A DNA stretch of 64,000 nt from Cinnamomum chago (Eukaryota; Streptophyta; Magnoliopsida; Laurales; Lauraceae). Position 1 is the stretch's first letter. The number at the start of each line of letters is the position of its first letter. Shown in pieces: positions 6,877-61,727 of this stretch. The stretch spans positions 107,269,001 to 107,333,000 of the forward strand of contig CP142452.1 of assembly GCA_038049695.1 (NCBI GenBank), read 5' to 3'. The translations under genes and the position numbers were made by a program. Under the pieces are notes generated by a model. It was not told the DNA's origin, searched no databases, and was given only the letters and a program-made list of their open reading frames with translations.

Positions 6877-6889
6877 AAGTTTACTAACA

Positions 6890-18835: not shown

Positions 18836-18849
18836 TGAAAACCAAAATT

Positions 18850-22047: not shown

Positions 22048-22194
22048 CCTAACATTCCACATACAGCTTGTTAGGTCACAAGACCAAAACCAAAAACCAA
22101 AACCTGACCCCCCAACATTCCACATACAGTTTGTTGGGTCACACGGTCAAAACCAAAATCCGACCCCCTAACTTGCCATATACAGCCTGTTAGG
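22048..22194 (+). repeat. Three tandem hairpin units before the E1 polypurine tract
   Basis: Three units of about 60 bp each hold an inverted repeat: CCTAACA/TGTTAGG (22048-22054, 22069-22075), CCCAACA/TGTTGGG (22111-22117, 22132-22138) and CCTAAC/GTTAGG (22167-22172, 22189-22194). The loops (14, 14 and 16 bases) share CATACAG or TATACAG. The second stem has T-A replaced by C-G on both sides. E2 repeats this at 58713-58859. Confidence 0.8.
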
Positions 22195-22425
22195 ACTCAA
22201 GGTCAAAACAAAAATCCAAATCCGCACCCCCGATGTCATCTTCAAAACTTTGCCTCAAGATGGTACATGATTCCTATCGCTACCATAAAATCCCCTGGAA
22301 GCTCAAAAGGCTACTCCATCAAAAAAAAAAAAAATGCTCAAAGACTCTTGGTCAAGACAGAAGCTCTTCTTCAAGATTCTCTTCGAGGCACATCGACTGC
22401 AAAAGCTATATCGTCGCTGTACCTC

Positions 22426-22432
22426 GAGGGGG
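22426..22432 (+). other. Polypurine tract of E1
   Basis: GAGGGGG lies 4 bases before the 3' LTR start, within CTCGAGGGGGCATT. It is identical in E2. It primes plus-strand DNA synthesis in this family type. Confidence 0.8.
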
Positions 22433-22436
22433 CATT

Positions 22437-25048: not shown

Positions 25049-25336
25049 AAGGGTTATTGCTTAGCCTAGTAAAAAGCATAAATAGTGGAAATCCGGTGGG
25101 GTGATTGGATTACAAGCCGGTAGTGGACATAGGCATTGAGGCCGAACCACTATAAATCTGTGTGTAGTGGTGTTTGCTTTGTGATGATTGTTTTATTAGC
25201 TTCCGCATTTTGATTGTTTATCATCACTTGTGACTAATTTATGTTAAGAAATTAAAATTGGTCTAAAATTGGTCATAGTTGTAGCACACCCTATTCACCC
25301 CCCCCCCTCTAGGGTTAGGATCCCAAGGAACTTTCA
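25049..25336 (+). repeat. TR1 5' LTR, second part
   Basis: It begins with the duplicated AAGGG, then continues the GCTTAGCC repeat exactly where it was cut at 2672. It runs through a C-rich stretch to the LTR end ...CTTTCA. Together with 1020-2672 it forms one LTR matching 29167-31082. Confidence 0.92.
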
Positions 25337-36305: not shown

Positions 36306-38934
36306 TGTTGACACCAAAAATGTCACTTTGCCTCTTCACACCAAAAGCTACATGTAGCCACATCCTACCAAAAATAGGCAGGCACCACTTCAAGCATCAG
36401 ATCTTGTCAGAATCAAACAAAAAACTGCAAGGTCATTCAAAACAACCAAAAGAGAGGTACACATGAAGTTTCAGGCCATTCCGACATTATTTGGCCTAGC
36501 TTCACTTCTCCAACAGCTAAGCAGCAGTTCCCGGCGGCGGACCACCCCGGGACCATGGCACCTAATTCGGAGCTTGCGGATCATCTCAAAATGACTCCAA
36601 TAGGCTCCTCGTCGAATTTCAGGTCAAACGGACATCGTTTGACCAGAAGTCAAAGCTCGGCATCTCTCTCGCAGGAGAAACAAAGGCAAGCGTTTGCATG
36701 GCCCCAAACGGCTTCAAAACCCAAACGAAAGCCTTTGGTGGGTCTTAACTACTGATGAGGGAGTCACACGTAAAATTTCAGGTCAATCGGACATCGTTTG
36801 ACCGAAAGTCAAAGTTCGGCATTTCCCTCGTGGTGAAATCAAAGGCAAGCGTTTGCATGACTCCAAATGGCTTCAAAACTCAAACGAAAGCCTATGGTTG
36901 GTCTTATCTACTGATGAGGGAGTCACACGTCGAATTTCAGGTCAATCGGACATCGTTTGACCGAAAGTCAAAGCTCGGCATTTCCCTCGCGGTGAAATCA
37001 AAGGCAAGCATTTGCATGACCCCAAACGGCTTCAAAACTCAAACGAAAGCCCATGGTTGGTCTTATTTAATGCTCAAGAAGCTTCACCTCAAAATTCAGG
37101 TCATTCCGACATCGTTTGACCCTGTTTCAGCTTCTGGCGGAAAATCAGCAGTTCTGCGCTCGGCTTTTCCCGGAAAATCAGAAACTTTGCAAACCAATTT
37201 GCAAGGATTCTCATCATGTTTTTCAGAGGGAAATCAAGCCAAAAGTGTGGAGAAATGTCATAGAAAACAAACAAAAAAAACGGAAGCGAAAAACGACGAA
37301 AAACGGCCAGAAACGGGCCCCGGGAAGCAATTTTCCCCCCAGGGTCGCAGAGCCCCGCGACCCTGGGCCAGGCCTGCGACCCTGGGCCATGGTCGCCGGC
37401 GACCATGGGGCCGGCGACCCTGGGAGGTCCGGGGCGCCGATTTCGCCCCGGGACCCCCCGTTTCGTCCGTTTTCGCGAGACGAGTTGTTCTGTCCCTGTG
37501 ATTTTTCCAGATTCAGACTTTTGAGGCTCCAAATTCGCCGATATTCGCCAAGATCACAGGAATCCTTCCAAGAACTTCAAAAACTTCGTTGATCGCCAGC
37601 TGAACAACCAAAAAGTGCACTTTCTGCCCGCCCGATCGCGAAATCGACTGGACAGATGCTGCCAGCCCGCTGGTATCAACCAATGTCTGAAACTACATGA
37701 TCATCTGATGTTGATTTACATAAGGATCCATCGATGATCATCGTAAAGGGAATTCCAAGAGACGCAACATGGCCCGCGACTCTTCAGTTACCAAGGTGGC
37801 CACTTAGTGCAATCAATTGGCCCGTTTATGGCAAGTTAATGCGGTCATTAACCCATTATCTTGAACGGCCCAATCAGAAGCCTCCGTTCAGGAGTTACAA
37901 GTCCAAGCAATCATGACATTAAAATCATGAAACTCCCATCATCATGGAGATTAAAAGCAATTAAATGCCCACTACTCTCCATCGGCCAATCAAATGCAAG
38001 GAAAAAGGAGTTACAAAACAAGTAATTAAAAACTTGTAACTCCTTCCATCATGAGCATTAATACCATAAATGCTCATAAACTCTCCTAAATGGCTACCAA
38101 ATGCCTATAAATAGGAAGCCATTCCAAGGAAAAGGAGATCCCGGAGAAAATCGCCACGGATCCGGAAAAATCGCCAGAAAATCATTTAAAAATCCTCGGA
38201 GAAATCTCTACAACCCTGCTCCTTCAAGAAAACTCTGCTGCGACAAGTTCAACAAGGTGATTGAAGCCCCTTGGGGGGCCACCCCCCCAAAGGCCACCTC
38301 TCCTTCTATCCAACATGGCTAGATGCGGCTTTTCAGCCCGTCTACTCAGTTTTTTACCGGATATAGGACCTTATCTTGGTCCTTATCCTCTAAAAATCTG
38401 AGGTTGGAGCCAAGCCAAGAAATCAAGCACTATGTTCTCATCTGAAGGACGATGGCGGAGCCCATACATGACTCGCGACCATCGATCTGAACGAGCCCTC
38501 CCACAATCGCATGAGAAGTTAGATTCCTTTTTCTTACTTTTCTGTTGTAAATTGTATTTTTTCTAAAGAGACAAAAAAATCACATCTCTTGTCTTTCATT
38601 ATTGATAAGATTTGTAAATCGCCTTTCATGGCAAAATCGCCTCCAACGGCACCAAACCGCCTTCTACGGCACAAAAACGCCTTTCATGGCATTCAAACAA
38701 AACTGTCTCTTTTATTAAAATATGTATGCAATGGAAAACTAGAAAAAAGTTTCATTTCCCTTTTTACTTGTGAAGGTGAATCTCCGGATCACCATTTCTA
38801 AATTCCAAGTATAAAAGAGAAATTGGCATACCCGTACAAAAAACTGATGCCCGCTTTTCCTTTTTCCCTCCACCATACCCCGTCAGCCCCGGGGCGGAGG
38901 CAGCTTTGGAAAAAGACAAAAGCCGGGACCATCA
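36306..38934 (+). repeat. E2 5' LTR
   Basis: The first 1.6 kb is nearly identical to the E1 LTRs; from about 37905 to the end it is clearly diverged. 159-bp repeats begin at 36615. A GC-rich palindromic block lies at about 37347-37430 and TATAAATA at 38106-38113. A four-unit GCC-N6-GGC repeat lies at about 38620-38692, the stem-reversed counterpart of the GGC-N-GCC units in E1. Confidence 0.95.
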
Positions 38935-40863: not shown

Positions 40864-42401
40864 GTGCTTAGATTCCTTTTGGCTCCTTTTTAGTTGGTGG
40901 CCTATGTTGGATCTTGCATCTAAAAAAAAAAAACCACATGAGATGGGATTCTTGGAAATTTCTTCTTTTGAGTTTATTTCCAGTCTTTCTTGTTTCTAAA
41001 AAAAAAAATCATCAAAAAACAAAATCTGATTTACAAAAAAAAAATTTCAGATTTTCCTCTTTTGGGTTTAAGTTGAGAAACTTTGGTTTCTTCCTTTTCG
41101 GACTTCGGGATCGCAGAAATGTTGAACCCATTTTCGGAATGGAGCACCATTCGCTCTCTTCTATGAATCCATAAAAAAAAAATCAAAAAACAAAATCTGA
41201 TTTACAAAAAAATTCTCAGATTTTCCTCTTTTGGGTTTAAGTTGAGAAACTTTGGTTTCTTCCTTTTCGGACTTCGGGATCGCAGAAATGTTGAACCCAT
41301 TTTCGGAATGGAGCACCATTCGCTCTCTTCTATGAATCCAAAAAAAAAAAAAAATCAAAAAACAAAATCTGATTTACAAAAAATTCTCAGATTTTCCTCT
41401 TTTGGGTTTAAGTTGAGAAAATTTGGTTTCTTCCTTTTCGGACTTCGGGATCGCAGAAATGTTGAACCCATTTTCGGAACGGAACACCATTCGCTCTCTT
41501 CTACGAATCCATAAAAAAAAAAAACCACTAAGGTTGCACCAATTGCGTTCTTTGACCAAAGTGGATCTAAGAAAAGCCTTGTCCAGAGTGTGGAGACAGC
41601 TAGACTGTTCTAGGCAAGGGTCCTCCAAACGGGTTCATTAAGTAATCTTACCCTTACCTGGGGGCTGATCTATCAACTGAGGTTTCATAAGATCGAATTG
41701 GAGATCTATGTGAACTCTTAAAAAAAAAGAAATCTTCAAAAAAAAAAAGGAAAAAAAAAACTTCTGTCATTTTTGGATTCATATTTGAGAAATCTTGGTT
41801 CCTTCCTTTTCGGACTTCGAGATCGCAGAAATGTTGAACTCATTTTCGGATTGGAATACCATTTGCTCTCTTCTATAAAGTCCAATCTTGACACTTTCAA
41901 AAAAAAAACTTCCGTCACTTTTGGATTCACATTTGAGAAATCCTGGTTCCTTCCTTTTCGGACTTTCGAGCTCGCAGAAATGTTGAGCTCATTTTCGGAT
42001 TGGAATACCATTTGCTCTCTCCTATGAATCCAATCTTGACCTTTCAAAAATCCCATCTCGTGTCCTTTCCAAGGATGCGATTTGCAACATTTGTGCCTAG
42101 CGGTGCTAGTACGCCCTTTCGGGTCTACTGTATTCGCAACTGACACATTTGTATCTCAACCTTATATCATTTTACCTTGAGTGAGCTTTGCTTCTCGGTA
42201 ATTTGAATTAAGGTTCACAATTGCTTCTAGCAGTCACTGGGACACTCATTCTGAGCTGACCCTACCTGCGTTTAGAACAATTGTGCCCTCTATGGCTTTT
42301 CTGCCCTCCTCATATTGCTTGGGCTGGGCCATGTCCCCTCGGGCGACTTGAAAAGGCGAAACCATAGTATTTTCCATTTATGATCACCATATTCTTGTGA
42401 T
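40864..42401 (+). repeat. E2 leader with five A-tract-separated units
   Basis: Three close units of 169-171 bp start at 41051, 41220 and 41391. Two diverged units start near 41770 and 41915. Each holds 'gcagaaatgttga(a/g)c' and 'gctctct' and ends in an A run. A conserved non-repeat block lies at 41520-41700. No supported gene. Confidence 0.8.
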
Positions 42402-42427
42402 TACTAATGGATATGGTCTTGTTTCAG
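42402..42427 (+). promoter_or_regulatory. Predicted 3' splice site of a leader intron before gag (E2)
   Basis: TACTAAT (42402-42408) and TTTCAG (42422-42427) have the same spacing as in E1, 20 bases before the gag ATG. Donor not found. Confidence 0.45.
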
Positions 42428-42447
42428 AAGTTTTCCAAAAACTAACA

Positions 42448-45400
42448 ATGGCAGCTTCATTAACCATCACCTTTGATGAGAACAAGTACCAGCTCATGCT
42501 CCAAGACAAACAAACCAAGCGCACTTACAAGCGCCCTGCCAGCTGCCGAAGCGTCATTTCCCTCGGCAACTCAGAAGACACCGGGTCAAACTCTACTCCC
42601 CGGACCATTGTCTTCGGGTCATTGGGACCATTCCCACTACCCGCAGAAGAAACCGCACCTGCCAAGAAGCAGAGAACCGCCCCTCAACGTATCACTACAG
42701 TGATACCAAGGGCGACCATCAAGAAACCTGAGGCCCGTAGTGCTCCTGGAAAGCCTCAACCAGCAAGAAACCAAGTCTGTTCAAAGACTTGGTCTCCAAG
42801 ACCTTCACCCAAACAGCGAAGGTCACAAACATCAGCAAAGCCAGCATACCTGGCCCTTCTCAAGGAGAACCGGTTCTACCCTCTTGCTTACATGAAAGAG
42901 GAGAAGCCTACCCTCCGCCAAACTAAACCAACTCAGCACGAGCCGGCCTGCTCATACAAGCCCAAAATCAAATCGTGCATCGTAAGGCCTCCGCAAGAAC
43001 CTGCCAAGGCCTTCACACATGCGAGCCGACCCTTCCTCTCAACGGGAGCCGAACTCGCAAAATTCAAAGCTTTGCTGCGACAGGCAAAGGACCGCGTCCA
43101 GATCCTGTCCCTGCCCGTCTTCAAAGAAGACAAGCTTGGCTGCTGCGCACCAGGGACTACGTCCTTCATTGCCAGAGCACAGCCAGAGCTAACCGAAGCT
43201 CAAATCGCTCGTCGTATGCGTCGCCGAACGGCATATCGACAAAAGAGACTAGAGAAGCAAAGAACCCAGGATTCTGCACTTCAGGTCTCTAAAAAATGGG
43301 TCGAAAAAGAAAGACCCGACCAAATTGTTGCTGTTCATATGGTTGGCAAAACCAGAAAACGCCAGAAGTCAGCAACTAAAATCCATGTCAGACGTCCGGT
43401 GACTCGCAGCGTCTCCCGGACACGAAGACATAAAGAAAACTCTCCCGCTTCTTCAAGCCAAGGACATCGGAGTGACCACTCTTCGAGCTCTTCATCTAAA
43501 AGAATGAGCTCCAGCTCAGTCACCAAGACTATATCCTCTTTCGTCTCTCGAAGAATGAACGTCTTGGTCACAAATACTGAGCAACCTCCGCCGCATGATG
43601 ACGTAACCGCACGCATCCAGCAGCTGGAGCAAGGGCAGCAGAGGATAGAGACTCTAATAGAAAACCTAATTCTCAATCTTCAGCGTCCACAAAACAATGA
43701 AGCTCCTCCGAGCCATCAAGGCGACGAGGAAAATGCGGAAAACAATGAGTCACGCGCCCTTACCAAAAAGGACGTTGACGATATCCTCGCCAAAGCAAAA
43801 GAAGAGGATACAGTAAAGGAGCATGGGATCAAGCCACCATATCCCTTGTGGATGGACTCAGTCCCGTTCCCTACAAAATTCAAGCAACCTACTCTCCAAA
43901 CATATACGGGGAAGGGTTCGGCCAGACAGCACGTCATCCATTTCAAGATCCTGACGGGAGCTATTGCGGACCAAGATGCCCTCAAAATTCGCCTCTTTGC
44001 AAGTACCCTAAAAGGTACGGCCTTTGATTGGTACTCCACTCTGCCGGAGGACTCCATTCAAAATTGGGCCATGTTGGAGACACGCTTCCTAACCCACTTC
44101 AAAGGTGAGGATCATCCCGTTACTATGGCTCAGCTCTGCAGCCTAAAACAGGGAGAGAATGAGTCAACATATGACTTTATTCACAAGTGGAAGGCAATGG
44201 CATACAAATGCTCCGATGTACTGCCACAAGCATCACTGGTCGACATCTGCCGAAACAACATGAGAGCAAGAATCCGCTCCATGATCATCGGCAACAAATC
44301 AAAGAACCTGGGAGAACTCCTGGAAGCAGCTATGGAAGCTGAAACGGTGATCAAAGATCTCAACAGTCAGAAATCATTGAAGAAAGAGTCGACTGCCATT
44401 GCAACCTCAAAACCAAAGAAAAAGGAGGTTCTCAATGTGCAAACCAAGTCAGCTCCTCAGCCGCCAAAGAAAGCTGAAAACAAAGATGCAGGTAAAAAGC
44501 CTGAACTCTCTGATGCATTCAAAGAACGAGTAGAGAAGAAATACCCGTTCGATGAAGATGTTGAAGAAATCTTTGGGGCACTCCTAGCAAACGGCAAACT
44601 TACATTGCCTGACCCCAAAAGACCGGGCGATGTTGGCAAAACCAACGATCCTCGGTACTGTCCATACCATCAGATGGTCTCGCATCCTCTCAATCAATGC
44701 TTTGTTGTGAGAGAGAAGATAAATGAGATGTGGAAAAACGGAGTCATTACCTTCGACAAGAACTATGGGTCTGCCTCCGTCAACATGGTGTCGTGTGGAC
44801 AAAAACAAAAATCACCAAAAGAGAAGATCACTACTTCCTTCAAGGTGATAAAGATGACCCAAACGTCCCAAGAGTTGGTTCCATATCCAACATCAGACGG
44901 ACAGCCCATATGGGTACACCCCGATCTCCTAGAAGATGAAAATTGGGAGGTCGTCAAAACAAAGCCAACCGCTCAACAGCGAAGGCAAGCCAGGAGACAA
45001 CTCCGCAAGCTCAAACAGCAGGAGAAAGCTCCGAAAAAGCAAGAAGTCGCTGAAAAGGCAGAAACCTCCTCTACCGCTTCACTGGGGGCAACAGAAGAGT
45101 CCTCCCCTAAGGCGGCAAGAAAATTCACTCTTGGTGATTTCATGCCACCACACCTCAAAGATGAAACTATGCAAGGGGCATCATACTCTTGCAACTCGGT
45201 GGTCGGATTCCCCATGGATGGATACGAGTCCAGTGACACCGCCAGTGACATCGATGAGTGGGAGGAATCCCTCGAAACAGGAGAATATCTCTCCGACGAG
45301 GAATGGATCCCTGAATCTTATCTTATGCCAGTAATCTGGTATAACCCATTACAGCCGCAAGGATCCTGGTCTGATGATGAAGAAGACCAAGAGGCTGTCC

Positions 45401-48400
45401 AAGAAAATACTCCAGTGGAACCCAACCATGTTGAACCACAAGGAGCAGACGAAGAAGAAGATTTGGCTCCCGTGCCTGATCTCGATGAATACGCAAGGAT
45501 CTTGCAGCACCTTGCTATAGAGCAAGAACAAGGTCGCATCAATCAGCTTCGTCACAACCCAGCACCGCAAGTTCCTGAAAATCTACAGGAATCTCCTCCG
45601 GTAACCCCGGAAAACGAAGAAAGCTGTTGGATCGACGATCCTCTTACATCTGAGGACGAATCTGATTCCCAACAGTTCATCTTGGAGGCATCTTCCGTCA
45701 AAGTTACTTGCAATGCAATAGCTCAGGATGATAATTCCTCACCTTCTCAGGCTTCGTCTCCTGAAACAGTGACATCGGAACTCAAACCTCTTCCGACTGA
45801 TCACCTTGAAGAAATTCCAGCCGGTGAAATCTTCTTCAGAGAAAATCCGGTCAATTGGTCCCAAATGCCCGATCTCATCGGTGATGTCTGGACCGACAAA
45901 ATATTTGATAAAGAAGGAAAGTTGCTGGATGCTGTTCAGGACTTGCTCCCGGAAAATGCTCCATGCAACACAATTACTGAAGATGGCAATGCTGACACAG
46001 AGACATCTTCAGCAAATGAGAAGGAACAACCCCTCGATCTCGAGGGTGATCTTCTAAACAAAGACCCTTCTCCAGAAGCTCTTGAAGTTGGTAGAGGTAC
46101 CCGTTCTGGCCGGGATTACCATAAAAACTACAACCAACCTTCTGCTTCTTATGTAAATCCTTCGGGAAAACAAGCTGTAAACGCCCCTAGTGGCAAGAAT
46201 AATGAAAATGCAGGCCCCAAGGAGGCTTTCAAGTACGACTTGATTCAGCACTTCAAACACATACCTGCACGTCTGCACATCCTAGACTTATTACGAATGT
46301 CACCACAGACTCGTGATAGTCTCATTTCAGAACTACAAATGCTGGATGCGGATGTCGACAAACATGCCCCACAAGTCCTGCAAATTGAAATGGACTATAG
46401 GGTCGAAAAATCAAAAACTCCCTCAAAAGGAGAAAAGAAGAAAACTGAGGGATCCTGCATCGAATGCCTCTCGGTTCAAAAAGCAGCAAGTGCAACCATC
46501 GCCTTCACCAAGGAAGATCTCCTGCTAGGCGAGACAAAGCACAACCGACCCCTGTACTTCACCGGGTACATCAAAGAGGTGCCAGTACGCAAAATCCAGA
46601 TCGATCCAGGTTCTGCACTCAACCTCATCTCCACTTCGGCACTCGAAGAACTGGGCATTCCGCCTAGCAAGCTGAGCCACACGTCTGTGTCCATCTTTGG
46701 ATATGATGGCAGCGCTCAAAGGCCGATCGACAAAATCAGGTTCAAGTTGCAAATCGGTGATCTTATCTCCGAGGTCACTGTCTATGCGATAAAGACCCCT
46801 TCATGCTACAACATCCTTCTCGGACGTCCCTGGATACACGAGAATGGTGTTGTCCCTTCGACTTTACATCAGTGCATCAAGTTCGTTGGCAATGACGGCT
46901 TGATACATCGAGTGTTTGCAGACAAAAAGCCCTTCAAAGGTAAAGAAGTCTATTTCGCAGATGCTCAAATGTACAAAGATGAAAAAGAAGAAAGGGAGGA
47001 AGAAACAGCATCCTTTGCCGAAAATCTCCAGAAAGACAAAGGCAAGGCTCCTCAGCAATCACCAGAAGAAAATAAACCCTCTATCAAAACCGAAGAGAAT
47101 GATCAATCTCCCTTCATGGTCTCCCTCAAGTCTTCAAAGCCTCTGGTGATCACCACCAAAGGAAAGAAGACAAAACAAAGGGCTGGGGGCAAGTTTGCTG
47201 TCTCCTTCGTGTCTATCTTGCAAGACACGGATTCGGACTCAGAGCCAGAAGACGATACATCGTCAAGCCAAGCTGATAATCAACAAGTTCAGCCCGCTCT
47301 CACTCCGATGGAGACAACCGTTGACATAGAAGATCCAGCATCTGCTTCCTTTGTTGTTCCAGCAACATCAGCAGAAGAAAAGCCAATCTTCTTCCATAAA
47401 TCAGGAGCTTCTTCATCAAATTCTTCGCTTGAACCTTTCCAAAAAGAAGGTATGCCTCAACTATCCCTGTATAGTCCAATGGCGCAAGCTATCATGAAGA
47501 AAATGGGCTACGATGCTCAGAACCCAATCGGTTTGGGAAATAACCGTGGTATTATCACGCCATTGGAACCAACCTTGACCAAAAGTCATCTGGAAGGTTG
47601 GAAACCCCACCGCCACATAGAAAAGTCTTCACATGGGCTGGGGTATGATCCTGACGCTCCCTTGAGACAGTTGACACAAAGGCTGCAAAGTCATCTTGCC
47701 GACCAAGCCTCAACATCTCATATTAATGAAGACATCGATCTCCCTGAATATCTCTTTGAAGAGTTGATCGTCAAGGATCCAGGAAGTTCATCCAATTGTT
47801 ACGATTTCTCTGATGATGAAGAGGAATTGTCCGATGATACAGACACAAGGTTCTCTGACCCAGAAGAACCACTGTCTCCAAAAGAAGTGCCCTACTTCGA
47901 CCCAGTTTCAACAGGTGATTGGGACCATCTCATAACAAATCTTGAGAAAAGTACCAATCAAGAAGACCCATGGACAAAAGCAGAGCCGTGGTCCGTAGAT
48001 ACCTTTGGAACTCCAGAAGGCTTTGTTGGGTTGGAAGCCTCCGAAAATATTGTGGAGGAACCACCTTCAAATCTTCCAACTGAAGATTCTGTTCAAAAGA
48101 TAGACTTGGGAACACCTGATAACCTACGTCCTGTATTCATAAGCAAGAATATAAAGGATGATGAGTTACCCGAGTATATCGCGTTTCTTCATGAGTTCGT
48201 TGATTGTTTTGCATGGTCTTACGCTGAGATGCCTGGCTTAGACCCCAAAATAGCAGTCCACAAACTCAATCTTCAAAAAGATATCAAGCCTGTCAAACAA
48301 GGCCAAAGAAGGTTCCGTCCTGACGTGATGGACAAAATTGAACAAGAAGTCCAAAAACTCAAAAGCGTTGGCTTCATCCGTGAGGAACAACATCCTGAAT

Positions 48401-50244
48401 GGTTGGCCAACATCGTCCCCGTGACAAAGAAAAATGGGCAAATCAGGGTTTGCATTGATTACAGAGACCTGAACAATGCATGCCCAAAAGATGAATTCCC
48501 GCTCCCTATACCTGAGGTGATGATCGACAACACCTGTGGGTTCGAGCGAATGACATTCATGGATGGCTTCTCTGGCTACAATCAGATAAAGATGCATCCT
48601 GAAGATGAAAAACACACAGCATTTCGGACCCCGTTTGGCGTGTATTGCTACACTGTCATGCCATTCGGTCTGAAGAATGCCGGCGCTACATATCAGAGGG
48701 CTATGATGAAGATCTTCCAAGATATGCAGCACAAGACGGTCGAATGTTATGTCGATGACCTCGCCGTCAAAAGCAAAAGAAAAGAAGACCATCTCAAAGA
48801 TCTTCGGGAAGTCTTCCTCCGACTTCGCAAACACAAACTGCGAATGAATCCCCTCAAATGCTTCTTCGGTGTTTCATCGGGTAAGTTTCTTGGGTTCATA
48901 GTACGGAAAGCTGGCATAGAGCTTGACCCCACCAAAGTCAAGGCTATCCTAGAAATGCCATCTCCAAGAACCCTAAGACAATTAAAAGGGCTCCAAGGAA
49001 GATTGGCATACATTCGGCGGTTCATCTCCAACCTATCAGGGAAGTGCCGTCCATTCTCTCGGTTAATGAAGAAAGGTGTCGATTTTGTCTGGGATGCTGA
49101 ATGTGAAGCTGCGTTCCAGGACATCAAGTCATACCTGACTAAACCTCCAGTGTTGGCTGCCCCCACAACTGGAAAACCATTCCTCTTGTACACAAGAGCC
49201 CTTGACCGTTCTTTAGGCGCTCTACTTGCACAAAAGAATGACGAGGGAAAAGAAGCTGTTCTATATTACCTTAGCCGCATGTTGGTAGGTGCAGAGCATC
49301 GCTACTCTCCAGTCGAAAAAGAATGCTTGGCAGTAATGTTTGCCGTACAAAAACTGCGTCACTACCTGCTATCCAACACAGTGTACCTAATTTCGAGGAT
49401 CAACCTCCTAAAGGTCCTTGTCACAAAAGCAGGTTCTCTCAATGCCCGACTGGCAAAATGGTCCATCCTCCTGTCACAATTTGACATTAGGTATGTACCA
49501 CAAAAAGCAATCAAAGGCCAAGCTCTAGCAGACTTCCTCGCGGAGCATCCATTGCCTAAAGATTCTCCACTCAGAGATGACCTCCCAGACGAATCAGTCT
49601 ACAGTGTGGAGACTTCCTTATCAAATGCTTCCTGGCACATGTACTTCGATGGCGCAACCAGGACAAATGAAAGGGGAAATCAAATATCGGGAATTGGCAT
49701 TCTCTTTGTTAGTCCCGACAAATACATGATTCCACACGCATTCTCACTACTGGAACCATGTTCAAACAATGCAGCTGAGTACCAAGCCCTGATCATAGGA
49801 TTGGAACTCGCCCTTGAATCCGGCATCACTACGCTGGAAGCTTTTGGAGACTCTCAACTGATCGTCAACCAGATGAATCAGAAATTTGAAGTCAGGAAGC
49901 CCGATCTGTTGCCTTACTACAACAAAGCACAATCGCTTCGACAAAAGTTCGACATCTGTCACATCACCCACATCCTCAGAGGTGAAAACATTCGTGCAGA
50001 TGCCCTGGCTGGACTTGCTGCGTCTATGGCAATCCAAGAAGGGGAAAACATGCGAATTACAGTGTGTCAAAAAAGGATTCTCCCTCCTCTCAACACACAT
50101 CAAGCAGTTGCTGAATGCCACCAAGTGGTTGGAAGTCGGATTTCCGTCCTTAAACCTCTGATCGGCGACTGGAGGGATCCGTTCATTGATTACATAATGT
50201 TCGGAATCCTACCTGAAGATCCAAAAGAACGGGTAAGCATCTAA
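42448..50244 (+). CDS. E2 Gag-Pol polyprotein up to a premature stop (2598 aa)
   Basis: The first in-frame ATG (MAASLTITFDEN) is at 42448; the frame is open further upstream only from a GTG inside the presumed intron. Approximate order by residue: basic Ser/Pro-rich N-terminus 1-480; gag domain 486-635; Cys/His knuckle (YCPYHQMVSHPLNQC) near 737; acidic linker; protease with DPGSALN at about 1386; G-patch-like MKKMGYDAQNPIGLG near 1680; reverse transcriptase with YVDD at about 2101 (48748-48759); RNase H about 2245-2320; second RNase H (YFDGA, NAAEYQAL, GDSQLIV, RADALA) about 2395-2530. A TAA at 50242-50244, where E1 has CAA, stops it before integrase. Only this change separates it from a continuous 2992-residue frame ending at 51426. 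Gag and Pol share one frame with no shift, so protein ratio must be set some other way. Confidence 0.93.
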   Translation: MAASLTITFDENKYQLMLQDKQTKRTYKRPASCRSVISLGNSEDTGSNSTPRTIVFGSLGPFPLPAEETAPAKKQRTAPQRITTVIPRATIKKPEARSAPGKPQPARNQVCSKTWSPRPSPKQRRSQTSAKPAYLALLKENRFYPLAYMKEEKPTLRQTKPTQHEPACSYKPKIKSCIVRPPQEPAKAFTHASRPFLSTGAELAKFKALLRQAKDRVQILSLPVFKEDKLGCCAPGTTSFIARAQPELTEAQIARRMRRRTAYRQKRLEKQRTQDSALQVSKKWVEKERPDQIVAVHMVGKTRKRQKSATKIHVRRPVTRSVSRTRRHKENSPASSSQGHRSDHSSSSSSKRMSSSSVTKTISSFVSRRMNVLVTNTEQPPPHDDVTARIQQLEQGQQRIETLIENLILNLQRPQNNEAPPSHQGDEENAENNESRALTKKDVDDILAKAKEEDTVKEHGIKPPYPLWMDSVPFPTKFKQPTLQTYTGKGSARQHVIHFKILTGAIADQDALKIRLFASTLKGTAFDWYSTLPEDSIQNWAMLETRFLTHFKGEDHPVTMAQLCSLKQGENESTYDFIHKWKAMAYKCSDVLPQASLVDICRNNMRARIRSMIIGNKSKNLGELLEAAMEAETVIKDLNSQKSLKKESTAIATSKPKKKEVLNVQTKSAPQPPKKAENKDAGKKPELSDAFKERVEKKYPFDEDVEEIFGALLANGKLTLPDPKRPGDVGKTNDPRYCPYHQMVSHPLNQCFVVREKINEMWKNGVITFDKNYGSASVNMVSCGQKQKSPKEKITTSFKVIKMTQTSQELVPYPTSDGQPIWVHPDLLEDENWEVVKTKPTAQQRRQARRQLRKLKQQEKAPKKQEVAEKAETSSTASLGATEESSPKAARKFTLGDFMPPHLKDETMQGASYSCNSVVGFPMDGYESSDTASDIDEWEESLETGEYLSDEEWIPESYLMPVIWYNPLQPQGSWSDDEEDQEAVQENTPVEPNHVEPQGADEEEDLAPVPDLDEYARILQHLAIEQEQGRINQLRHNPAPQVPENLQESPPVTPENEESCWIDDPLTSEDESDSQQFILEASSVKVTCNAIAQDDNSSPSQASSPETVTSELKPLPTDHLEEIPAGEIFFRENPVNWSQMPDLIGDVWTDKIFDKEGKLLDAVQDLLPENAPCNTITEDGNADTETSSANEKEQPLDLEGDLLNKDPSPEALEVGRGTRSGRDYHKNYNQPSASYVNPSGKQAVNAPSGKNNENAGPKEAFKYDLIQHFKHIPARLHILDLLRMSPQTRDSLISELQMLDADVDKHAPQVLQIEMDYRVEKSKTPSKGEKKKTEGSCIECLSVQKAASATIAFTKEDLLLGETKHNRPLYFTGYIKEVPVRKIQIDPGSALNLISTSALEELGIPPSKLSHTSVSIFGYDGSAQRPIDKIRFKLQIGDLISEVTVYAIKTPSCYNILLGRPWIHENGVVPSTLHQCIKFVGNDGLIHRVFADKKPFKGKEVYFADAQMYKDEKEEREEETASFAENLQKDKGKAPQQSPEENKPSIKTEENDQSPFMVSLKSSKPLVITTKGKKTKQRAGGKFAVSFVSILQDTDSDSEPEDDTSSSQADNQQVQPALTPMETTVDIEDPASASFVVPATSAEEKPIFFHKSGASSSNSSLEPFQKEGMPQLSLYSPMAQAIMKKMGYDAQNPIGLGNNRGIITPLEPTLTKSHLEGWKPHRHIEKSSHGLGYDPDAPLRQLTQRLQSHLADQASTSHINEDIDLPEYLFEELIVKDPGSSSNCYDFSDDEEELSDDTDTRFSDPEEPLSPKEVPYFDPVSTGDWDHLITNLEKSTNQEDPWTKAEPWSVDTFGTPEGFVGLEASENIVEEPPSNLPTEDSVQKIDLGTPDNLRPVFISKNIKDDELPEYIAFLHEFVDCFAWSYAEMPGLDPKIAVHKLNLQKDIKPVKQGQRRFRPDVMDKIEQEVQKLKSVGFIREEQHPEWLANIVPVTKKNGQIRVCIDYRDLNNACPKDEFPLPIPEVMIDNTCGFERMTFMDGFSGYNQIKMHPEDEKHTAFRTPFGVYCYTVMPFGLKNAGATYQRAMMKIFQDMQHKTVECYVDDLAVKSKRKEDHLKDLREVFLRLRKHKLRMNPLKCFFGVSSGKFLGFIVRKAGIELDPTKVKAILEMPSPRTLRQLKGLQGRLAYIRRFISNLSGKCRPFSRLMKKGVDFVWDAECEAAFQDIKSYLTKPPVLAAPTTGKPFLLYTRALDRSLGALLAQKNDEGKEAVLYYLSRMLVGAEHRYSPVEKECLAVMFAVQKLRHYLLSNTVYLISRINLLKVLVTKAGSLNARLAKWSILLSQFDIRYVPQKAIKGQALADFLAEHPLPKDSPLRDDLPDESVYSVETSLSNASWHMYFDGATRTNERGNQISGIGILFVSPDKYMIPHAFSLLEPCSNNAAEYQALIIGLELALESGITTLEAFGDSQLIVNQMNQKFEVRKPDLLPYYNKAQSLRQKFDICHITHILRGENIRADALAGLAASMAIQEGENMRITVCQKRILPPLNTHQAVAECHQVVGSRISVLKPLIGDWRDPFIDYIMFGILPEDPKERVSI

Positions 50245-51426
50245 AGACGAGCCCCAAACTTTCATTTGGATATTCCTGCAAAAATGCTGTATAGAAAATC
50301 CTACAATGGAGTACTTCTACGCTGCTTGTCACAACAAGAGGCTGAGGAAACACTCAAAGAAGTACATGCTGGTCTTTGTGGAGCCCATCAGGCTGGGCCT
50401 AAGCTCTACGATCAGATAAAAAGGTTAGGTTATTATTGGCCTACCATGGTGGCTGATGCAATGCAATTTGCTAAGCGCTGCCAACAATGCCAAATTCATG
50501 GAGACTATGTCCACATGCCTCCGGAATGGCTGCATCCTACAGCAATCTCATGGCCTTTTGAAGCCTGGGGTATGGACATCATAGGTCCTATCTCCTCTCC
50601 ATCGAGCAAAGGTCATCGCTTCATCTTCGCCGCTACGGATTATTTCTCCAAGTGGTCAGAAGCATTCGCGCTTAGTGAAATGAAGACCTCATCAGTCCTT
50701 CAGTTCTTGCGCACCAACATCATTTGTCGCTTCGGCATACCTAAAAGATTCGTCCATGATAACGGACCACAGTTCCGCGATCACCGATTCTACAGGTTCT
50801 GCGACAAATACAAAATCCAAAGTTGTCCTTCAACTCCTTATAATCCGGCAGCGAATGGACTAGCAGAGGCCTTCAACAAGACGCTCTGCAAAATCCTCAA
50901 GAAAATGGTCTCTAGTCACAAAAGAGAATGGGGCGACAAACTGCCTGAAGCTTTGTGGGCCTATCGAACCACCGTTCGAGGACCAACCCATAGCACACCA
51001 TTCTCCTTGGTCTATGGATGCGAAGCTGTTGTCCCTTTGGAAGTTCAAATTCCTTCCTTAAGGGTATCTCTACAAAATGACATGACGCAAGAAAGCAATG
51101 TCAAATTGAGACTCCAAGAGCTGGATAACCTCGATGAGAGACGGCTCGAAGCTCTACAAAGCATTGAACTCTACCAAGCACGCATGGCAGGATCTTTTGA
51201 CAAGAAGGTCCGGCAACGCGCCTACAAAAAGGGAGACTTGGTTCTTACAGTAAAAAGACCAATGGTTTTTGCCAACAAATCCAAAGGCAAATTTGAACCA
51301 AAATGGGAGGGACCTTTCGTCATCGACAAAGTCTTCTCCAACGGCGCATACGCTCTTCTAAACATGGAGGGTGACAGATGTATGCTGCCCATCAATGGAA
51401 AGTTCTTGAAGCGGTACTACCCTTGA
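50245..51426 (+). pseudogene. E2 integrase (same frame, after the stop codon)
   Basis: It continues the polyprotein frame. The His/Cys zinc-binding region (HAGLCGAH... C-x2-C) lies at about 50365-50495. Catalytic D, D, E fall in GMDIIG (about 50574), HDNGPQF (about 50755) and GLAEAFNK (about 50860). A GPF/Y-type module (KWEGPFVI) precedes the terminal KRYYP. There is no chromodomain. An internal ATG at 50266 could only give a protein cut from its normal polyprotein context. From about 50400 on it is nearly identical to E1, unlike the upstream parts. Confidence 0.9.
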
Positions 51427-53096: not shown

Positions 53097-54258
53097 TCAG
53101 CCAAAAATGCTCTCCAGCCAAGCTTTCAGCTCCTCAAGCAAACTCTTGGCTTCATCCGTTAGAGTCTCCAAGGCACGCTTCTTCAAGAATCTGCCATGAG
53201 TAGCTGGAGAAGGCTCTATCCCTTCTGCTACACCAGGAAGATTATCCCGAGCAGTCTGCCATCGTTCATTCTCTCTAGCCTTCCTATTGAGAATCTGATC
53301 GGCCTCTGCAACTTGGCGAATCAAAGCACTCTCCCTGTCACGAGCCTCTGTTATGGCGGACCACGTACTGGCAACTTGGGCCTTTAGGTGTTCGAGATGC
53401 TTCCTTGCCTCCTCAACCTCTCCATCAAGGATGCTAAGGTCATGCTGCAGCCTGATGATGTCTAACTCCGCTCGGTTCCTCTCCCGAACCAGCTGCTTCC
53501 TGCCCTGTGTAGTCTCTTTCAAATCCGATTGGGCCTTCTCAGCAGGAGTCAGGAACATTTCTTGGAAGAACTGGTCATCAGGATAGCTGATGGTCTCAAA
53601 CCACCCGTTGCCTAATGCAATGATCTTATCAACGATCGCCCGGGCGTCCGTAACATCCAGACCAATATCTTCCTCAGCATCTTTGAGAATCTCCTTCACA
53701 TGCGGAATCTTGCTACGTGCAACATCCAAGTGTCCAGAAAGGAGGGTCTCAATCCAAGAACTCAAAACCCGCATCACCACCTTCTTCGCATACTGAAGAG
53801 ATGGGCCAGATGAAGACTCACCCTTCTCTGTCGATTGGTTGCCCAAGTCATGTCCCATCGGAAGAATAACAATAGAACACTTTCCAATCGGGGCCGCTGG
53901 AGAAGGAATCTCAACATGAGGTCTTGCCTCTGCCGCGTCAGAATTGGCTGGAGGAGTCCCAATTACTGGGTCAACTTCTGGCATCCCTGGCTCTGGCTCT
54001 GAAGGAAGCGATGGACTCTCTTCTGTCACTTCAAAATCTGCCAAACACAAAAAGGTATGAATATGATCTTGTCAAAAAAAAAAAAAAAATTGTGTCAAGA
54101 TTATCACTATGAAATACCTTCTTCCATGATGGGTGGAGTACTTTCTGTCTCCATTTGCTCATCTGAGGCATCGTCAAAAGCCATATCCATAGATGGCTCG
54201 AAGTCGGAACCCTCTGGCAAGTCAGCTGACAAGAAAACAAAAATATGTGTCAGCAAAT

Positions 54259-54289
<31 letters not shown>

Positions 54290-57200
54290 TCATCCTCATA
54301 CCAGGTGGAGATTCTGGGTCCTCCCCAGAGTCCCTCAACTCTTCTTCAGATGCCGCAACTGGATCCATCACCGCCTCATCGGCAGGAACCTCGGGCATCA
54401 CCAAGTTTTCATCCTCTGCAAAAGAAAGAAAACAACAGATCAAAAAAAAATCCCTCATAAAAGGAAAGAAGCGGAAATAGAGAAGAAGGAGAATCATACC
54501 AACATCGGCGGCCTCTTCTTCACGACTCCTTTTCTTTGGAGGCTCATCAGCATCTCCTGATACCTCCTCAGCGATGGTAGAAGGGACTTCCAGATCAAGA
54601 GAGTCTTTGTGGCGTCTCTCAGTGCGACGCTGTCCTCTCCTCCTCTTTTTTCTACGAGCCGGTCTACTTGAAGTACCTGCCTCACTGTCAAAGTCAGGAC
54701 TTCCACTTGGCTCCTCACTGGACGACCCGCTCCTACCAGTGGACCCCATGGAAGCCTTCATTCGCTCTGCTTGCATCCAAGTGACGATCTCGGCTTCCTC
54801 CTCCTCGAGCTGTCTCAAGACCTCAGCAGGTATCTCTTGAGCGGCTCCGGATCTAATGACATCCTGTTCCTCGAGAAAGCCTATCCTATGCTTCTCTCCA
54901 GAAAGGAAGAACAAAACTTCCCCTCGACGGATGCCATCTGATCTACCAAGACCCTTCCCAGGAGATTGCTTGACATTCAGCTCCTTCTTGGAAAGCCCTC
55001 GGTACACAGCAAAGCTCTCCACGAACCACTTCGTGAAGCCAGCAGTCCGGAAAATGGGCAACTCAGGATAGGAAATCATGGCAGTAGTGTCCTCCGCACT
55101 ATAGAAAGCCCATGCATTTCTCCCGTCCTGCAAACCTCCAAAACGCTTCACCATGCTCGAAGGCGCTCCAACAACGCCTTGAGAGAAGCCTAATTGCAAT
55201 GCAAAACGCGAAGGGACATACGGCTGGATATCAACAAAAAGATGTCTGCGGTACACCATCGTGCCAACACGTATGTTTAAAAGCCACCTCTTCTCTGCGT
55301 TGGTCAAAGAATAGTGTCTTCCCGATCCTGCCCTGGTAGAATCTCGGGAGACACCAAAATCAAAAGCCTTCTTCCGCAAATCTGGAAAAAGCTTTACTGA
55401 AGATTGCCCAATCTCGACATCCCTGAATCGTCGGATTCTCAAGCGGGCAGACAAAAGTGAATCGGAAACGGCTTTTCCCCTGGCCAACCGAATCATAAAA
55501 GGGTCATCATCCTGAGCAGCGCCCAAACGGTGGAAGCCGGGACAGTGGTACACATACCACGAATAAAAAATATGGGCTGAGAATACCCTATTCAAAGGAA
55601 GCCCAAGCCGAACCAGAAAAGCAGCAGCCTGCAGTTCGGTGCACAAATAGGAGTAAAGAGCAGGCACCAAAGCCAACTGCTTTCCGAACGCCATCTGACA
55701 AGCTGGAAATATACAATGCGGCCTGATGTGTGTTCCGTCTCCTCCAGCAAAAACAGCCTCACCCAGCCAATAAGTGAGGTACGCAGCAACGTCTCTCCGC
55801 AGCGCAATGTCGGAGCAAACGGCGTCTGTACTTGTGAGAAATTTCTTCAAATTCTCTCGCATGGCAGAAATCTTCTTCCCCGGATTCTTAGTCTTGGCTT
55901 CCTGGATCATACTCTCAGAAGATTCTTCGTCGCCAAAAAAGTTTGGAGACAAAGAGCTGAAACTCCTCCAACTGCTACACCGGACTTTCAAGCCCTCCTT
56001 CTCCCTCAAAAAATCGTAGAAGGCGACAAGCTGAAAGTACAAAAGCCTGAACTCCTCAGACTGCTCCTCAAGGACGCTGTCGATCGGCATAAATTCCTCA
56101 TAGAGTTTGCCGAGGATGGGTAACCCGGTAATGGCACTCAGCTCCTTCAAAGAAAAACCAATCTCACCATTCGTAACAATGAAGGTGTTGGTTTGTGGAA
56201 GGAAGGACTCCAGCATGGCCATAAAAGCCTCATCGGAGAAAACTACGGTTTGCCTAAACGCGCGAACCGCATCAAAAATCTCGGCCTCCTTCAGAATGGC
56301 ACCGCCGATCTGCAAGATATGATCAGTCCACGACTCCCAGCTCGAGTCAACACTGAAACGGCCACGAAGTCGAAAAGGCTTCACCCAATTGCTGCCATCG
56401 CCCCTGAAAATGCCAAGGCCCACCGGTCTCAAATCAACCGATGGATGATCAGATTCTTGGTAGCCGCTGGCCGGCATCAACATGTCCAGACGGACAGGCG
56501 ACTTCTCTGCATAACCAGAAGGACCGCCAACAAAAACCCCGGTCTTGACCACATTGGTCCTCTTCACCCAGCTTGGAGGATCTTCTCTCTTAGAGCATGT
56601 GGGAGAAAGACTCATGATCGAAATAGTACGATCAAAAGGCGACCGGGTAGAAATGGTTCTCTCCTCACCATCGGCTGTGTAAGAGAACTGAAAGCATCTC
56701 CTTTGATATGACAAGTCATCAGGAGCTGCATCACCAAAGAAAAAGGTAGGCTTGGGCACAACGCTCTGATCGTCCATGACCCAAGGACGATTGCTTGCCA
56801 TAATCTTGTAAAACTCCTCATCCTTGAGAGCGATCAGTCGCTGTCTCATCTCATCTCGGTTGAGCGAGTCACACTCTTCCAAGTTTCTCTCCACATACTG
56901 GACCTTCTCCCAGGCCTGTTGTACAGCCGCATTGGAAGATCTGGCAGATCGACGAGGTGCATCGGTAACGGGCTTCTTACCCTTGTTCGTTCTGGAGGAA
57001 CTACCTGCAAAGATTGAAAAAAAAAAAAAAATCAATCAACAGAATGACAGAATTTTGCTAAAAAAAAAATCCTAGCGAAATTTTGGCATGACTCCGAGGC
57101 AATTCCGAAGAAAAGGGAATCACCCCGAAAAGAAAGGAAGCCTGAAGATGAGCTCAACATCGCTGCGAGCTCATAATCAATGAAGGATTCTCAAAGAAGA

Positions 57201-58006
57201 CTCGAACTCAAACATTGCTGCGAGATCAAGACAGTCTTCTCAAATTTCCGCAAGAATCGGAAAAGAGCTCAACATTGCTGCGAGCTTCAAATCCCAAAAC
57301 TTGCAAAAAGCTCCTCGAAACCCCCGCAAGACTAAAGAAAGAGCTCAACATTGCTGCGAGCTTCAAATCTCAAGACTTGCAAAAGATTTCCAGGTGTGCA
57401 TCATGCTCCCAATTCAATTTACCAAAAATCATGCATAAAAGAAAATCATCATGCACTAGATGCTAGGAAAACCTTGACAAAATTTGACCAATTCCAACCC
57501 AACTTGGTCAAAATCAAACTTTGTCTAAGTCAAAATTCATGTTGACTTAACATAGAAACTCTAGCCTTCTATCTTGATGCATCAAACAAAAAAAAAATGC
57601 ATAAACATCTTGAATTGCATGAAACCTCATTATCATGATGATGCAAGAAGGGGAGAAAGGAAAGTTTTTTTTTAAAAAAAAAAAAAAAGAAGAAGAAAAA
57701 AAAAAGAAAAGAGAAAAAAAAAAAAAAACTATGGGCTGGCCCACAGGCCGAAGCCCACAGGCCGTGGCCCATGGGCCACATGGCCGTACGGCCCAAGCTA
57801 TACGGACATGTCCGTACAGCAGCAAAAAAAAAAAAAAAAAAGAGAGAAAAAAAGAAAAAAAAAGAAGAAAGAAAAAAAAAAGAGAAAAGAAAAGGGCGTG
57901 TAAAAAAAAAGAAGAAAAAAACACGTGCAAAAAGAAAAAAAAATGATGAAACTTTCTTTACATGGAATTTCTTGTAAAAAGAAATAAAAAACTTACTTGA
58001 AGCCAT
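53097..58006 (-). CDS. E2 antisense gene: five-exon plant-mobile-domain and coiled-coil protein (1225 aa predicted)
   Basis: Exons on the minus strand are 57997-58006 (ATG 58004-58006), 54500-57004, 54302-54415, 54118-54225 and 53097-54037. Every intron is GT-AG (992, 84, 76 and 80 bp), has a T-rich 3' end, and is in phase 1. Exons total 3678 bases, 1226 codons, open to TGA at 53097-53099. Exon 2 holds a plant mobile domain (PMD, aminotransferase-like), about residues 205-500, with landmarks 'VDSSWESWTDHILQIG', 'FLPQTNTFIVTNGEIGFSL' and 'SAITGLPILG'. After it come basic nuclear-type signals (KKRRRGQRRTERR, PPKKRSRE). Small acidic exons 3-4 and a coiled-coil exon 5 follow. Tat elements are known to carry extra, sometimes antisense, frames. 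PMD proteins MAIL1 and MAIN act in transposon silencing in Arabidopsis. A nuclear role against silencing is inference. Confidence 0.8.
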
Positions 58007-58126
58007 GGATGGAGAAGAAAGAAGAACTTGAAGACTCTTGAAGAAGGAGGATTCTTGATCTTAGAGCAACTCTTGAAGACTTTTGCAAAAAGAAAGCAAT
58101 AGGAGCAAGAGATCCCACCTCAATTG

Positions 58127-58134
58127 CTTTTATA
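58127..58134 (-). promoter_or_regulatory. TATA box for the antisense gene (E2)
   Basis: TATAAAAG on the minus strand lies about 120 bases upstream of the ATG at 58006, leaving room for a start near 58100 and a short 5' leader. The same position in E1 reads CATAAAAG. The sequence is partly palindromic (CTTTTATAAAAG), so a plus-strand match also exists. Confidence 0.55.
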
Positions 58135-59109: not shown

Positions 59110-61727
59110 TGTTGACACCAAAAATGTCACTTTGCCTCTTCACACCAAAAGCTACATGGAGCCACATCCTACCAAAAATAGGCAGGCACCACTTCAAGCA
59201 TCAGATCTTGTCAGAATCAAACAAAAAACTGCAAGGTCATTCAAAACAACCAAAAGAGAGGTACACATGAAGTTTCAGGCCATTCCGACATTATTTGGCC
59301 TAGCTTCACTTCTCCAACAGCTAAGCAGCAGCTCCCGGCGGCGGACCACCCCGGGACCATGGCACCTAATTCGGAGCTTGCGGATCATCTCAAAATGACT
59401 CCAATAGGCTCCTCGTCGAATTTCAGGTCAAACGGACATCGTTTGACCAGAAGTCAAAGCTCGGCATCTCTCTCGCAGGAGAAACAAAGGCAAGCATTTG
59501 CATGGCCCCAAACGGCTTCAAAACCCAAACGAAAGCCTATGGTGGGTCTTAACTACTGATGAGGGAGTCACACGTCGAATTTCAGGTCAATCGGACATCG
59601 TTTGACCGAAAGTCAAAGTTCGGCATTTCCCTCGTGGTGAAATCAAAGGCAAGCGTTTGCATGACTCCAAATGGCTTCAAAACTCAAACGAAAGCCTATG
59701 GTTGGTCTTATCTACTGATGAGGGAGTCACACGTCGAATTTCAGGTCAATCGGACATCGTTTGACCGAAAGTCAAAGCTCGGCATTTCCCTCGCGGTGAA
59801 ATCAAAGGCAAGCATTTGCATGACCCCAAACGGCTTCAAAACTCAAACGAAAGCCCATGGTTGGTCTTATTTAATGCTCAAGAAGCTTCACCTCAAAATT
59901 CAGGTCATTCCGACATCGTTTGACCCTGTTTCAGCTTCTGGCGGAAAATCAGTAGTTCTGCGCTCGGCTTTTCCCGGAAAATCAGAAACTTTGCAAACCA
60001 ATTTGCAAGGATTCTCATCATGTTTTTCAGAGGGAAATCAAGCCAAAAGTGTGGAGAAATGTCATAGAAAACAAACAAAAAAAATGGAAGCGAAAAACGA
60101 CGAAAAACGGCCAGAAACGGGCCCCGGGAAGCAATTTTCCCCCCAGGGTCGCAGAGCCCCGCGACCCTGGGCCATGGTTGCCGGCGACCATGGCCCATGG
60201 TCGCCGGCGACCCTGGGAGGTCCGGGGCGCCGATTTCGCCCCGGGACCCCCCGTTTCGTCCGTTTTCGCGAGACGAGTTGTTCTGTCCCTGTGATTTTTC
60301 CAGATTCAGACTTTTGAGGCTCCAAATTCACCGATATTCGCCAAGATCACAGGAATCCTTCCAAGAACTTCAAAAACTTCGTTGATCGCCAGCTGAACAA
60401 CCAAAAAGTGCACTTTCTGCCCGCCCGATCGCGAAATCGACTGGACAGATGCTGCCAGCCCGCTGGTATCAACCAATGTCTGAAACTACATGATCATCTG
60501 ATGTTGATTTACATAAGGATCCATCGATGATCATCGCAAAGGGAATTCCAAGAGACGCAACATGGCCCGCGACTCTTCAGTTACCAAGGTGGCCACTTAG
60601 TGCAATCAATTGGCCCGTTTATGGCAAGTTAATGCGGTCATTAACCCATTATCTTGAACGGCCCAATCAGAAGCCTCCGTTCAGGAGTTACAAGTCCAAG
60701 CAATCATGACATTAAAATCATGAAACTCCCATCATCATGGAGATTAAAAGCAATTAAATGCCCACTACTCTCCATCGGCCAATCAAATGCAAGGAAAAAG
60801 GAGTTACAAAACAAGTAATTAAAAACTTGTAACTCCTTCCATCATGAGCATTAATACCATAAATGCTCATAAACTCTCCTAAATGGCTACCAAATGCCTA
60901 TAAATAGGAAGCCATTCCAAGGAAAAGGAGATCCCGGAGAAAATCGCCACGGATCCGGAAAAATCGCCAGAAAATCATTTAAAAATCCTCGGAGAAATCT
61001 CTACAACCCTGCTCCTTCAAGAAAACTCTGCTGCGACAAGTTCAACAAGGTGATTGAAGCCCCTTGGGGGGCCACCCCCCCAAAGGCCACCTCTCCTTCT
61101 ATCCAACATGGCTAGATGCGGCTTTTCAGCCCGTCTACTCAGTTTTTTACCGGATATAGGACCTTATCTTGGTCCTTATCCTCTAAAAATCTGAGGTTGG
61201 AGCCAAGCCAAGAAATCAAGCACTATGTTCTCATCTGAAGGACGATGGCGGAGCCCATACATGACTCGCGACCATCGATCTGAACGAGCCCTCCCACAAT
61301 CGCATGAGAAGTTAGATTCCTTTTTCTTACTTTTCTGTTGTAAATTGTATTTTTTCTAAAGAGACAAAAAAATCACATCTCTTGTCTTTCATTATTGATA
61401 AGATTTGTAAATCGCCTTTCATGGCAAAATCGCCTCCAACGGCACCAAACCGCCTTCTACGGCACAAAAACGCCTTTCATGGCATTCAAACAAAACTGTC
61501 TCTTTTATTAAAATATGTATGCAATGGAAAACTAGAAAAAAGTTTCATTTCCCTTTTTACTTGTGAAGGTGAATCTCCGGATCACCATTTCTAAATTCCA
61601 AGTATAAAAGAGAAATTGGCATACCCGTACAAAAAACTGATGCCCGCTTTTCCTTTTTCCCTCCACCATACCCCGTCAGCCCCGGGGCGGAGGCAGCTTT
61701 GGAAAAAGACAAAAGCCGGGACCATCA
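59110..61727 (+). repeat. E2 3' LTR
   Basis: 2618 bp, TGTTGACACC to CCATCA, nearly identical to 36306-38934. The GC-rich palindromic block (about 60145-60215) has its own arrangement, with GCCATGGTTGCCGGCGACC followed by an inverted copy. TATA box at 60899-60906. Confidence 0.95.

Follow-up and report, generated by a model that had tools for sequence, protein, structure and literature searches.

A Tat-clade retrotransposon of Cinnamomum chago probably carries an antisense, four-intron gene for a PMD protein

A 64,000-nt window of the Cinnamomum chago genome (CP142452.1; the window is the whole stretch of DNA that was analysed, and all positions are counted within it) contains a Ty3/gypsy retrotransposon of the Tat clade (Ogre/Retand type), and its sequence indicates that this element probably carries, on its antisense strand, an accessory protein gene with four introns, a TATA-type promoter motif and a 10-nt micro-exon. 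Here, on the minus strand, and in many copies of the element, it is located between pol and the 3' long terminal repeat (LTR), which is the position of the aORF-3R accessory genes. The five exons (Table 1) join into a frame of 3678 nt (1225 codons), in which each junction is of phase 1 and the terminal TGA is the sole stop. An earlier note on this DNA had proposed five antisense exons with GT-AG introns of phase 1 and a frame open from ATG to TGA; its coordinates were correct, its junctions coincide with the exon edges, and the motif TATAAAAG that it placed about 120 bp upstream of the ATG is present at 58134-58127. That exons 2 to 5 constitute a spliced gene is very likely.

Exon 2 was searched against the window's own genome (1.06 Gb), which returned 2275 first-look candidates; the best 40 were scored, and all of these were full length with 98-100% identity. 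Twenty gene regions were then taken from the best 40 matches, so that exon 2 is pre-selected for integrity in this sample; exons 3-5 played no part in the ranking. The earlier note had named frameshifts or stops throughout the exons of most other copies as counting against the gene, and the copies sampled do not refute it. Nine of the 20 keep the ATG, show all four GT..AG pairs and can be joined into a frame free of interruptions, a share that is biased upward because the copies come from the best exon-2 matches; five others have one or two stops only, one has a 1-nt gap and the structure of the remaining five is disrupted. In 18 of the 20 copies all four introns were scored as GT..AG; exon 1 could not be aligned in two of these, L009 and L023, where the first donor is uninformative. 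Twelve wider regions were picked from the 20 copies after their ends had been inspected (L009, L012 with a 1-nt exon gap, L016, L017, L020, L021, L023 and L027 were excluded). Outside homopolymers, the exons of these 12 copies contain no indel in 41,076 bases, compared with 33 in 8,720 bases of intron, 39 in 9,053 bases upstream and 50 in 9,260 bases downstream; with homopolymers included, the counts are 0 in 44,136 bases for exons and 144 in 14,012 for introns. At the intron rate, 155 exon indels would be expected outside homopolymers, and 51 would be expected in exons 3-5, which stood outside the exon-2 ranking and likewise contain none. Introns 2-4 show no non-homopolymer indel in 1,263 bases, all 32 of their events being in homopolymers, and it is therefore intron 1 and the flanks that provide the non-homopolymer contrast with the exons.

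The TATA motif reads TATAAAAG in 16 of the 20 copies and CATAAAAG in L019 and in a related element of the same window (element 1, Table 1); three of the 20 copies are not alignable there. The putative promoter segment (58007-58160) has one indel in 1,847 bases among the 12 copies, and its substitution level of 0.87% is lower than that of the upstream stretches (1.31-5.58%) but not lower than that of intron 1 (0.49-1.09%). Intron 1 together with the 5' segment (57005-58300) shows fewer substitutions (0.5-1.3%) than exons 2-5 (1.4-5.5%) in the same copies, perhaps from recent homogenisation of this stretch.

Judged from the pattern of substitutions, the antisense frame is under purifying selection. 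The ratio of nonsynonymous to synonymous substitution (dN/dS) for a divergent subfamily was obtained from one copy, L041, whose alignment starts no earlier than the 3' part of exon 2; its introns 2-4 are all GT..AG, and the gaps within its exons measure 12 and 3 nt. Over the 3' part of exon 2 and exons 3 and 4, dS was 0.845 and dN 0.211, giving a ratio of 0.25 (p=1e-18) against this one copy, well away from the value near 1 that the earlier note had named as counting against the gene. By part, the ratio was 0.24 in the aligned portion of exon 2 (p=3e-15), where 34, 47 and 80 substitutions fall at codon positions 1, 2 and 3, and in exon 4 dS was saturated with a dN of 0.21 (p=1e-5). The comparison of element 1 with the window likewise gave a saturated dS and a dN of 0.21 in exon 4, with a pol yardstick of 0.13-0.14. 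In a set of 16 rows, formed by the window and 15 of the 20 copies, private changes were approximately neutral (95 nonsynonymous to 44 synonymous; p 0.05-0.31, marginal at one ratio tried), and changes common to at least two rows included fewer replacements than neutral (40 to 33; p 0.0002-0.003); replacements were thus depleted among shared relative to private changes (one-sided Fisher p=0.037). This is the pattern expected if selection acts during element replication and stops after insertion. A non-coding or chance frame was ruled out by the indel contrast and by the dN/dS against L041.

Protein databases were searched three times, with about 8000 candidates scored in each search, and the 49 relatives found are avocado (Persea americana) predicted proteins and the contig proteins P0001, P0018 and the mislabelled P0003. 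Exon joins were counted from re-read alignments (a scripted count with tolerance 2 gave 16, 16 and 10 gapless joins). Of the 17 models that span the join of exons 2 and 3, 13 cross it without a gap and match at 10 or more of 21 residues; P0003, P0015 and P0031 (7-8 of 21 identical, P0003 running into intron 2) and P0011 (a 41-residue insert) do not support it. The join of exons 3 and 4 is gapless in all 16 models that span it and that of exons 4 and 5 in nine of 11, P0008 and P0020 giving no support; P0006 and P0011 extend through exon 5 to a matching C-terminus. The join of exon 1 across the 992-bp intron is matched by P0016 (MTSSSSSR) and P0044 (MASSSSSR). Ten models extend as far as the beginning of exon 2, and since only these two show the join, exon 1 is less certain than any other exon, and as drawn it is probable; its ATG and donor are retained in element 1 and in a further copy, L042, where the following intron has diverged. 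P0003, a public record labelled Yersinia pestis (4348-bp contig), shares 79% identity with the antisense protein and looks like plant contamination or mislabelling.

The earlier note had assigned a PMD to the product, and a Pfam run bore this out: PF10536 (PMD) matches the spliced protein at 9.5e-16, with 58.3 bits against a gathering cutoff of 34.9, and the scan of the spliced protein returned no domain other than PMD. The translation also contains a basic cluster, RRKKRRRGQRRTERR, near residues 787-803 and an acidic stretch at residues 836-960 with 39 acidic and two basic residues. A PDB sequence search gave a single match (E 0.095); pattern searches gave no match in viral contigs and 14 in genome contigs, none of them a relative.

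Retroelements replicate via RNA and are hence expected to lose introns. In the mechanism proposed here, host Pol II would transcribe the gene antisense from the internal TATA promoter, the spliceosome would join the exons of the antisense transcript, and the protein would then be translated; the sense genomic RNA, having the introns backwards, would remain unspliced and be reverse-transcribed into new elements. The genome agrees with the earlier claim that an intron-bearing gene can be propagated in this manner, since the gene has multiplied with its introns and no precisely intron-less copy is among the matches listed for a joined-exon query, which spanned introns 2-4 only (best 40 of 1522 candidates scored). 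That no such copy is listed suggests that new copies inherited the introns from older ones, which reverse transcription of the sense RNA would predict. Only one listed row, L043, crosses a junction, the others being exon-by-exon rows; it is the top joined-exon match, yet it was rejected as a spliced retrocopy because its 84-bp deletion is imprecise and reaches into exon 4. The comparison with artificial retrotransposition reporters made earlier holds in principle but not in arrangement, in that a reporter's intron is placed in sense with the element so that it is spliced out (PMC12786077), whereas here the introns lie in the opposite orientation and are kept. The element thus shows how a conserved multi-intron gene can persist, namely antisense to the genomic RNA.

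A derivative form has also spread. In element 1, the two ends of the exon-2 deletion meet within the poly-T runs of the first and second introns (21160-21210) with loss of the intron 2 acceptor, and L042 (about 2960-3060) has an identical deletion junction; an exon-2-deleted form common to both indicates that the PMD-less form has been mobile. Element 1 (19842-21065 versus 53097-54415) and L041 are mosaics, with 95-97% identity in exon 5 and 64-73% in exons 3-4, and the switch of identity in or near intron 4 suggests recombination between subfamilies.

The product would most likely act in trans in the nucleus and affect how the element is expressed or silenced, perhaps through competition with MAIN/MAIL1-type PMD proteins of the host. 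By analogy, a nuclear regulatory role is moderately likely, and a specifically anti-silencing role is a tentative suggestion. The wider proposition, that retrotransposons keep a multi-intron gene antisense, with a separate, export-competent mRNA that is not reverse-transcribed, and that the PMD product is a trans anti-silencing factor also serving defective derivatives, would be speculative and is rather doubtful as a whole. It also seems rather unlikely that the protein acts at a step other than silencing, for instance in bringing the pre-integration complex into the nucleus or to chromatin; the basic cluster described above and the nuclear localisation of GENE23 of the maize element Grande (PMC7264820) would suit such a step, but the PMD is all that Pfam finds in the protein.

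Several observations weigh against the gene and the function proposed for it. Eight of the ten models that extend to the beginning of exon 2 have other starts or enter it by reading in from the intron, and P0005, P0006 and P0011 pass in frame from exon 3 straight to exon 5, omitting exon 4, a symmetric phase-1 exon whose omission is possibly alternative splicing or a gene-finder effect. The avocado models may themselves derive from gene finders with common biases; one avocado annotation was built with BRAKER and RNA-seq (PMC9531333). Constraint is weak in exons 3 and 5, both against L041 (dN/dS 0.51, p=0.15, and 0.58, p=0.18, neither significant by Fisher's test) and between element 1 and the window (0.49 and 0.56). 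Nor does the substitution level by itself separate exons from introns, as it was 0.49-1.09% in the parts of intron 1, 1.40-1.87% in exon 2, 1.96-3.18% in introns 2-4, 5.48% in exon 4 and 2.24% in exon 5 of the 12 copies. AlphaFold on exon 2 gave a pLDDT of 28 and no usable model. The PMD would not be needed in cis, since the exon-2-deleted form spread; this form was either supplied in trans or able to do without the PMD. Ikeda et al. reportedly speculated about anti-silencing for MULE-captured PMDs.

Two accounts dispense with a selected protein today. In one, the frame is real and ancestral and it is the antisense RNA that now matters, pairing with the sense RNA, giving small interfering RNA (siRNA) and limiting the element through self-limitation or host control. 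The entire gene does face the 3' portion of the sense RNA, antisense RNA has been discussed as a regulator (PMC7264820), and PMD genes are sources of phased siRNA (phasiRNA) in tea (PMC10673657); pairing, however, would not preserve a codon frame, bar indels from exons or yield a dN/dS of 0.25, and this account is improbable. Far less probable still is a recently captured host PMD gene fragment hitch-hiking without selection, or a gene-model artefact, for although the PMD occurs in host genes too (PMC5418596) and captured genomic DNA would bring introns along, introns 2-4 lie at identical places in the diverged subfamily (L041), the avocado models share the joins, the genome has 2275 first-look exon-2 candidates, dN/dS against L041 is 0.25, and no other named plant is among the protein matches listed, where a host relative may be missed at about 8000 candidates per search.

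Read as an antisense accessory gene with introns, the Cinnamomum gene has partial counterparts in other elements. Grande gene23 (aORF-3R) likewise lies antisense between pol and the 3' LTR; it has its own promoter and a nuclear protein, and the available text mentions no introns or PMD for gene23; its authors urged a search for antisense and spliced transcripts (PMC7264820). The antisense TRP28 open reading frames (ORFs) of Retand also lie between pol and the 3' LTR, with tandem repeats alongside, but they have TRP28 (PF04195) where the Cinnamomum element has a PMD, and they are uninterrupted ORF Finder frames (PMC11963269). In Ogre, as here, an additional RNase H (aRH) lies between RNase H (RH) and integrase (INT) and a PMD occurs, in 57% of elements; the extra ORFs (eORFs) described there are getorf frames of at least 250 codons, and spliced genes were not modelled (PMC6317226). 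Unlike the introns described here, the known intron of Ogre lies in the sense gag-pol RNA. MAIN, MAIL1 and the gypsy PMD-A proteins have the same Pfam domain, which in the Cinnamomum protein is accompanied by basic, acidic and C-terminal regions; the PMD-A clades are gypsy-encoded, and MAIN and MAIL1 act in transposable element (TE) silencing (PMC5418596) and interact with PP7L (PMC7156037). TE-borne PMD genes under selection would be material for testing the role of a domain common to host silencing factors. The HBZ transcript of HTLV-1 is spliced, and we know of no homology between HBZ and the Cinnamomum protein. HBZ is, as here, an antisense gene (PMC11963269) retained through reverse transcription, though in a different virus family, and it is likened by description only.

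Plant LTR elements are generally without introns, Ogre and EVADE being exceptions (2025 review, PMC12786077). Antisense accessory ORFs before the 3' LTR, the own promoter of gene23 and the PMD in Ogre are already in print; none of the open-access papers listed describes an antisense gene with introns in an LTR element of plants, a scope that leaves most subscription journals outside. Surveys that count uninterrupted frames only (PMC6317226, PMC11963269) cannot model spliced genes, and more such genes may therefore exist in large Tat elements.

The carrier element has LTRs with TG..CA ends and a 5-bp target-site duplication (TSD), GTTTT, on both sides, as do elements of the Tat clade. Its sense ORF matched Retrotrans_gag, RVT_1, RT_RNaseH and RVT_3 above the Pfam cutoffs and Asp_protease_2 below the cutoff. 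RT_RNaseH (residues 2259-2362) is followed by RVT_3 (residues 2425-2539) and then by the INT ORF; in angiosperms, an extra RNase H placed between RH and INT distinguishes elements of the Tat group (Ogre or Retand; PMC6317226). The carrier has a PMD-bearing extra ORF, a trait typical of many, not all, Ogre elements; gag to aRH lie in a single ORF, and the carrier is therefore not assigned to the Ogre lineage. TRP28 (PF04195), the antisense trait of Retand, was not found in the Pfam scan of the spliced protein.

Table 1. Positions of the antisense gene, its carrier and a related element in the window
Feature	Position	Strand	Remarks
Putative antisense TATA box, TATAAAAG	58127..58134	-	about 120 bp 5' of ATG
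Exon 1, micro-exon ATGGCTTCAA with start codon	57997..58006	-	unchanged in 12/12 copies
Intron 1, 992 bp	57005..57996	-	GT..AG; indel-rich among copies
Exon 2, PMD domain, basic cluster near 3' end	54500..57004	-	PF10536
Intron 2, 84 bp	54416..54499	-	GT..AG
Exon 3, acidic	54302..54415	-	indel-free in 19/20 copies
Intron 3, 76 bp	54226..54301	-	GT..AG; found also in element 1 and L041
Exon 4, acidic	54118..54225	-	sole indel versus element 1 and L041 is 3 nt
Intron 4, 80 bp	54038..54117	-	GT..AG; found also in element 1 and L041
Exon 5, C-terminal region	53097..54037	-	TGA at 53099-53097; indel-free in 17/20 copies
5' LTR (TG...CA)	36306..38934	+	98.7% identical to 3' LTR; TSD GTTTT at 36301-36305
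gag, protease-like, RT, RNase H, additional RNase H, in one ORF	42397..50244	+	Pfam
Integrase ORF	50266..51426	+	PF00665 and PF17921 above cutoffs
3' LTR	59110..61727	+	polypurine GAGGGGG before; TSD GTTTT at 61728-61732 after
Element 1, related element, LTRs 97% identical	2673..25049	+	antisense gene remnant without exon 2

Other interpretations of the region were considered and rejected. Intron 2 has no in-frame stop in the window, but coding read-through was discarded since 11 of the 20 copies have an intron 2 whose length is not divisible by 3; translated in frame, this intron gives a hydrophobic 28-residue stretch. An overlapping sense gene was set aside because the longest stop-free sense stretch across the antisense gene is only 195 codons, and exon 3, exon 4 and the first part of exon 5 are not mutual duplicates, their similarity being not above that of shuffles.

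The sense pol frame of the carrier is stopped at 50244, between the second RNase H and the integrase, and the antisense gene is fully open. A repeat at 38980-40865, just inside the 5' LTR, has an inverted copy at 29165-31083 and others elsewhere, and is probably a nested insertion. A tandem array with units of about 20-53 bp (52207-52862) separates pol from the 3' end of the antisense gene; element 1 has a similar array, and tandem arrays of this kind have been described for Retand (PMC11963269).

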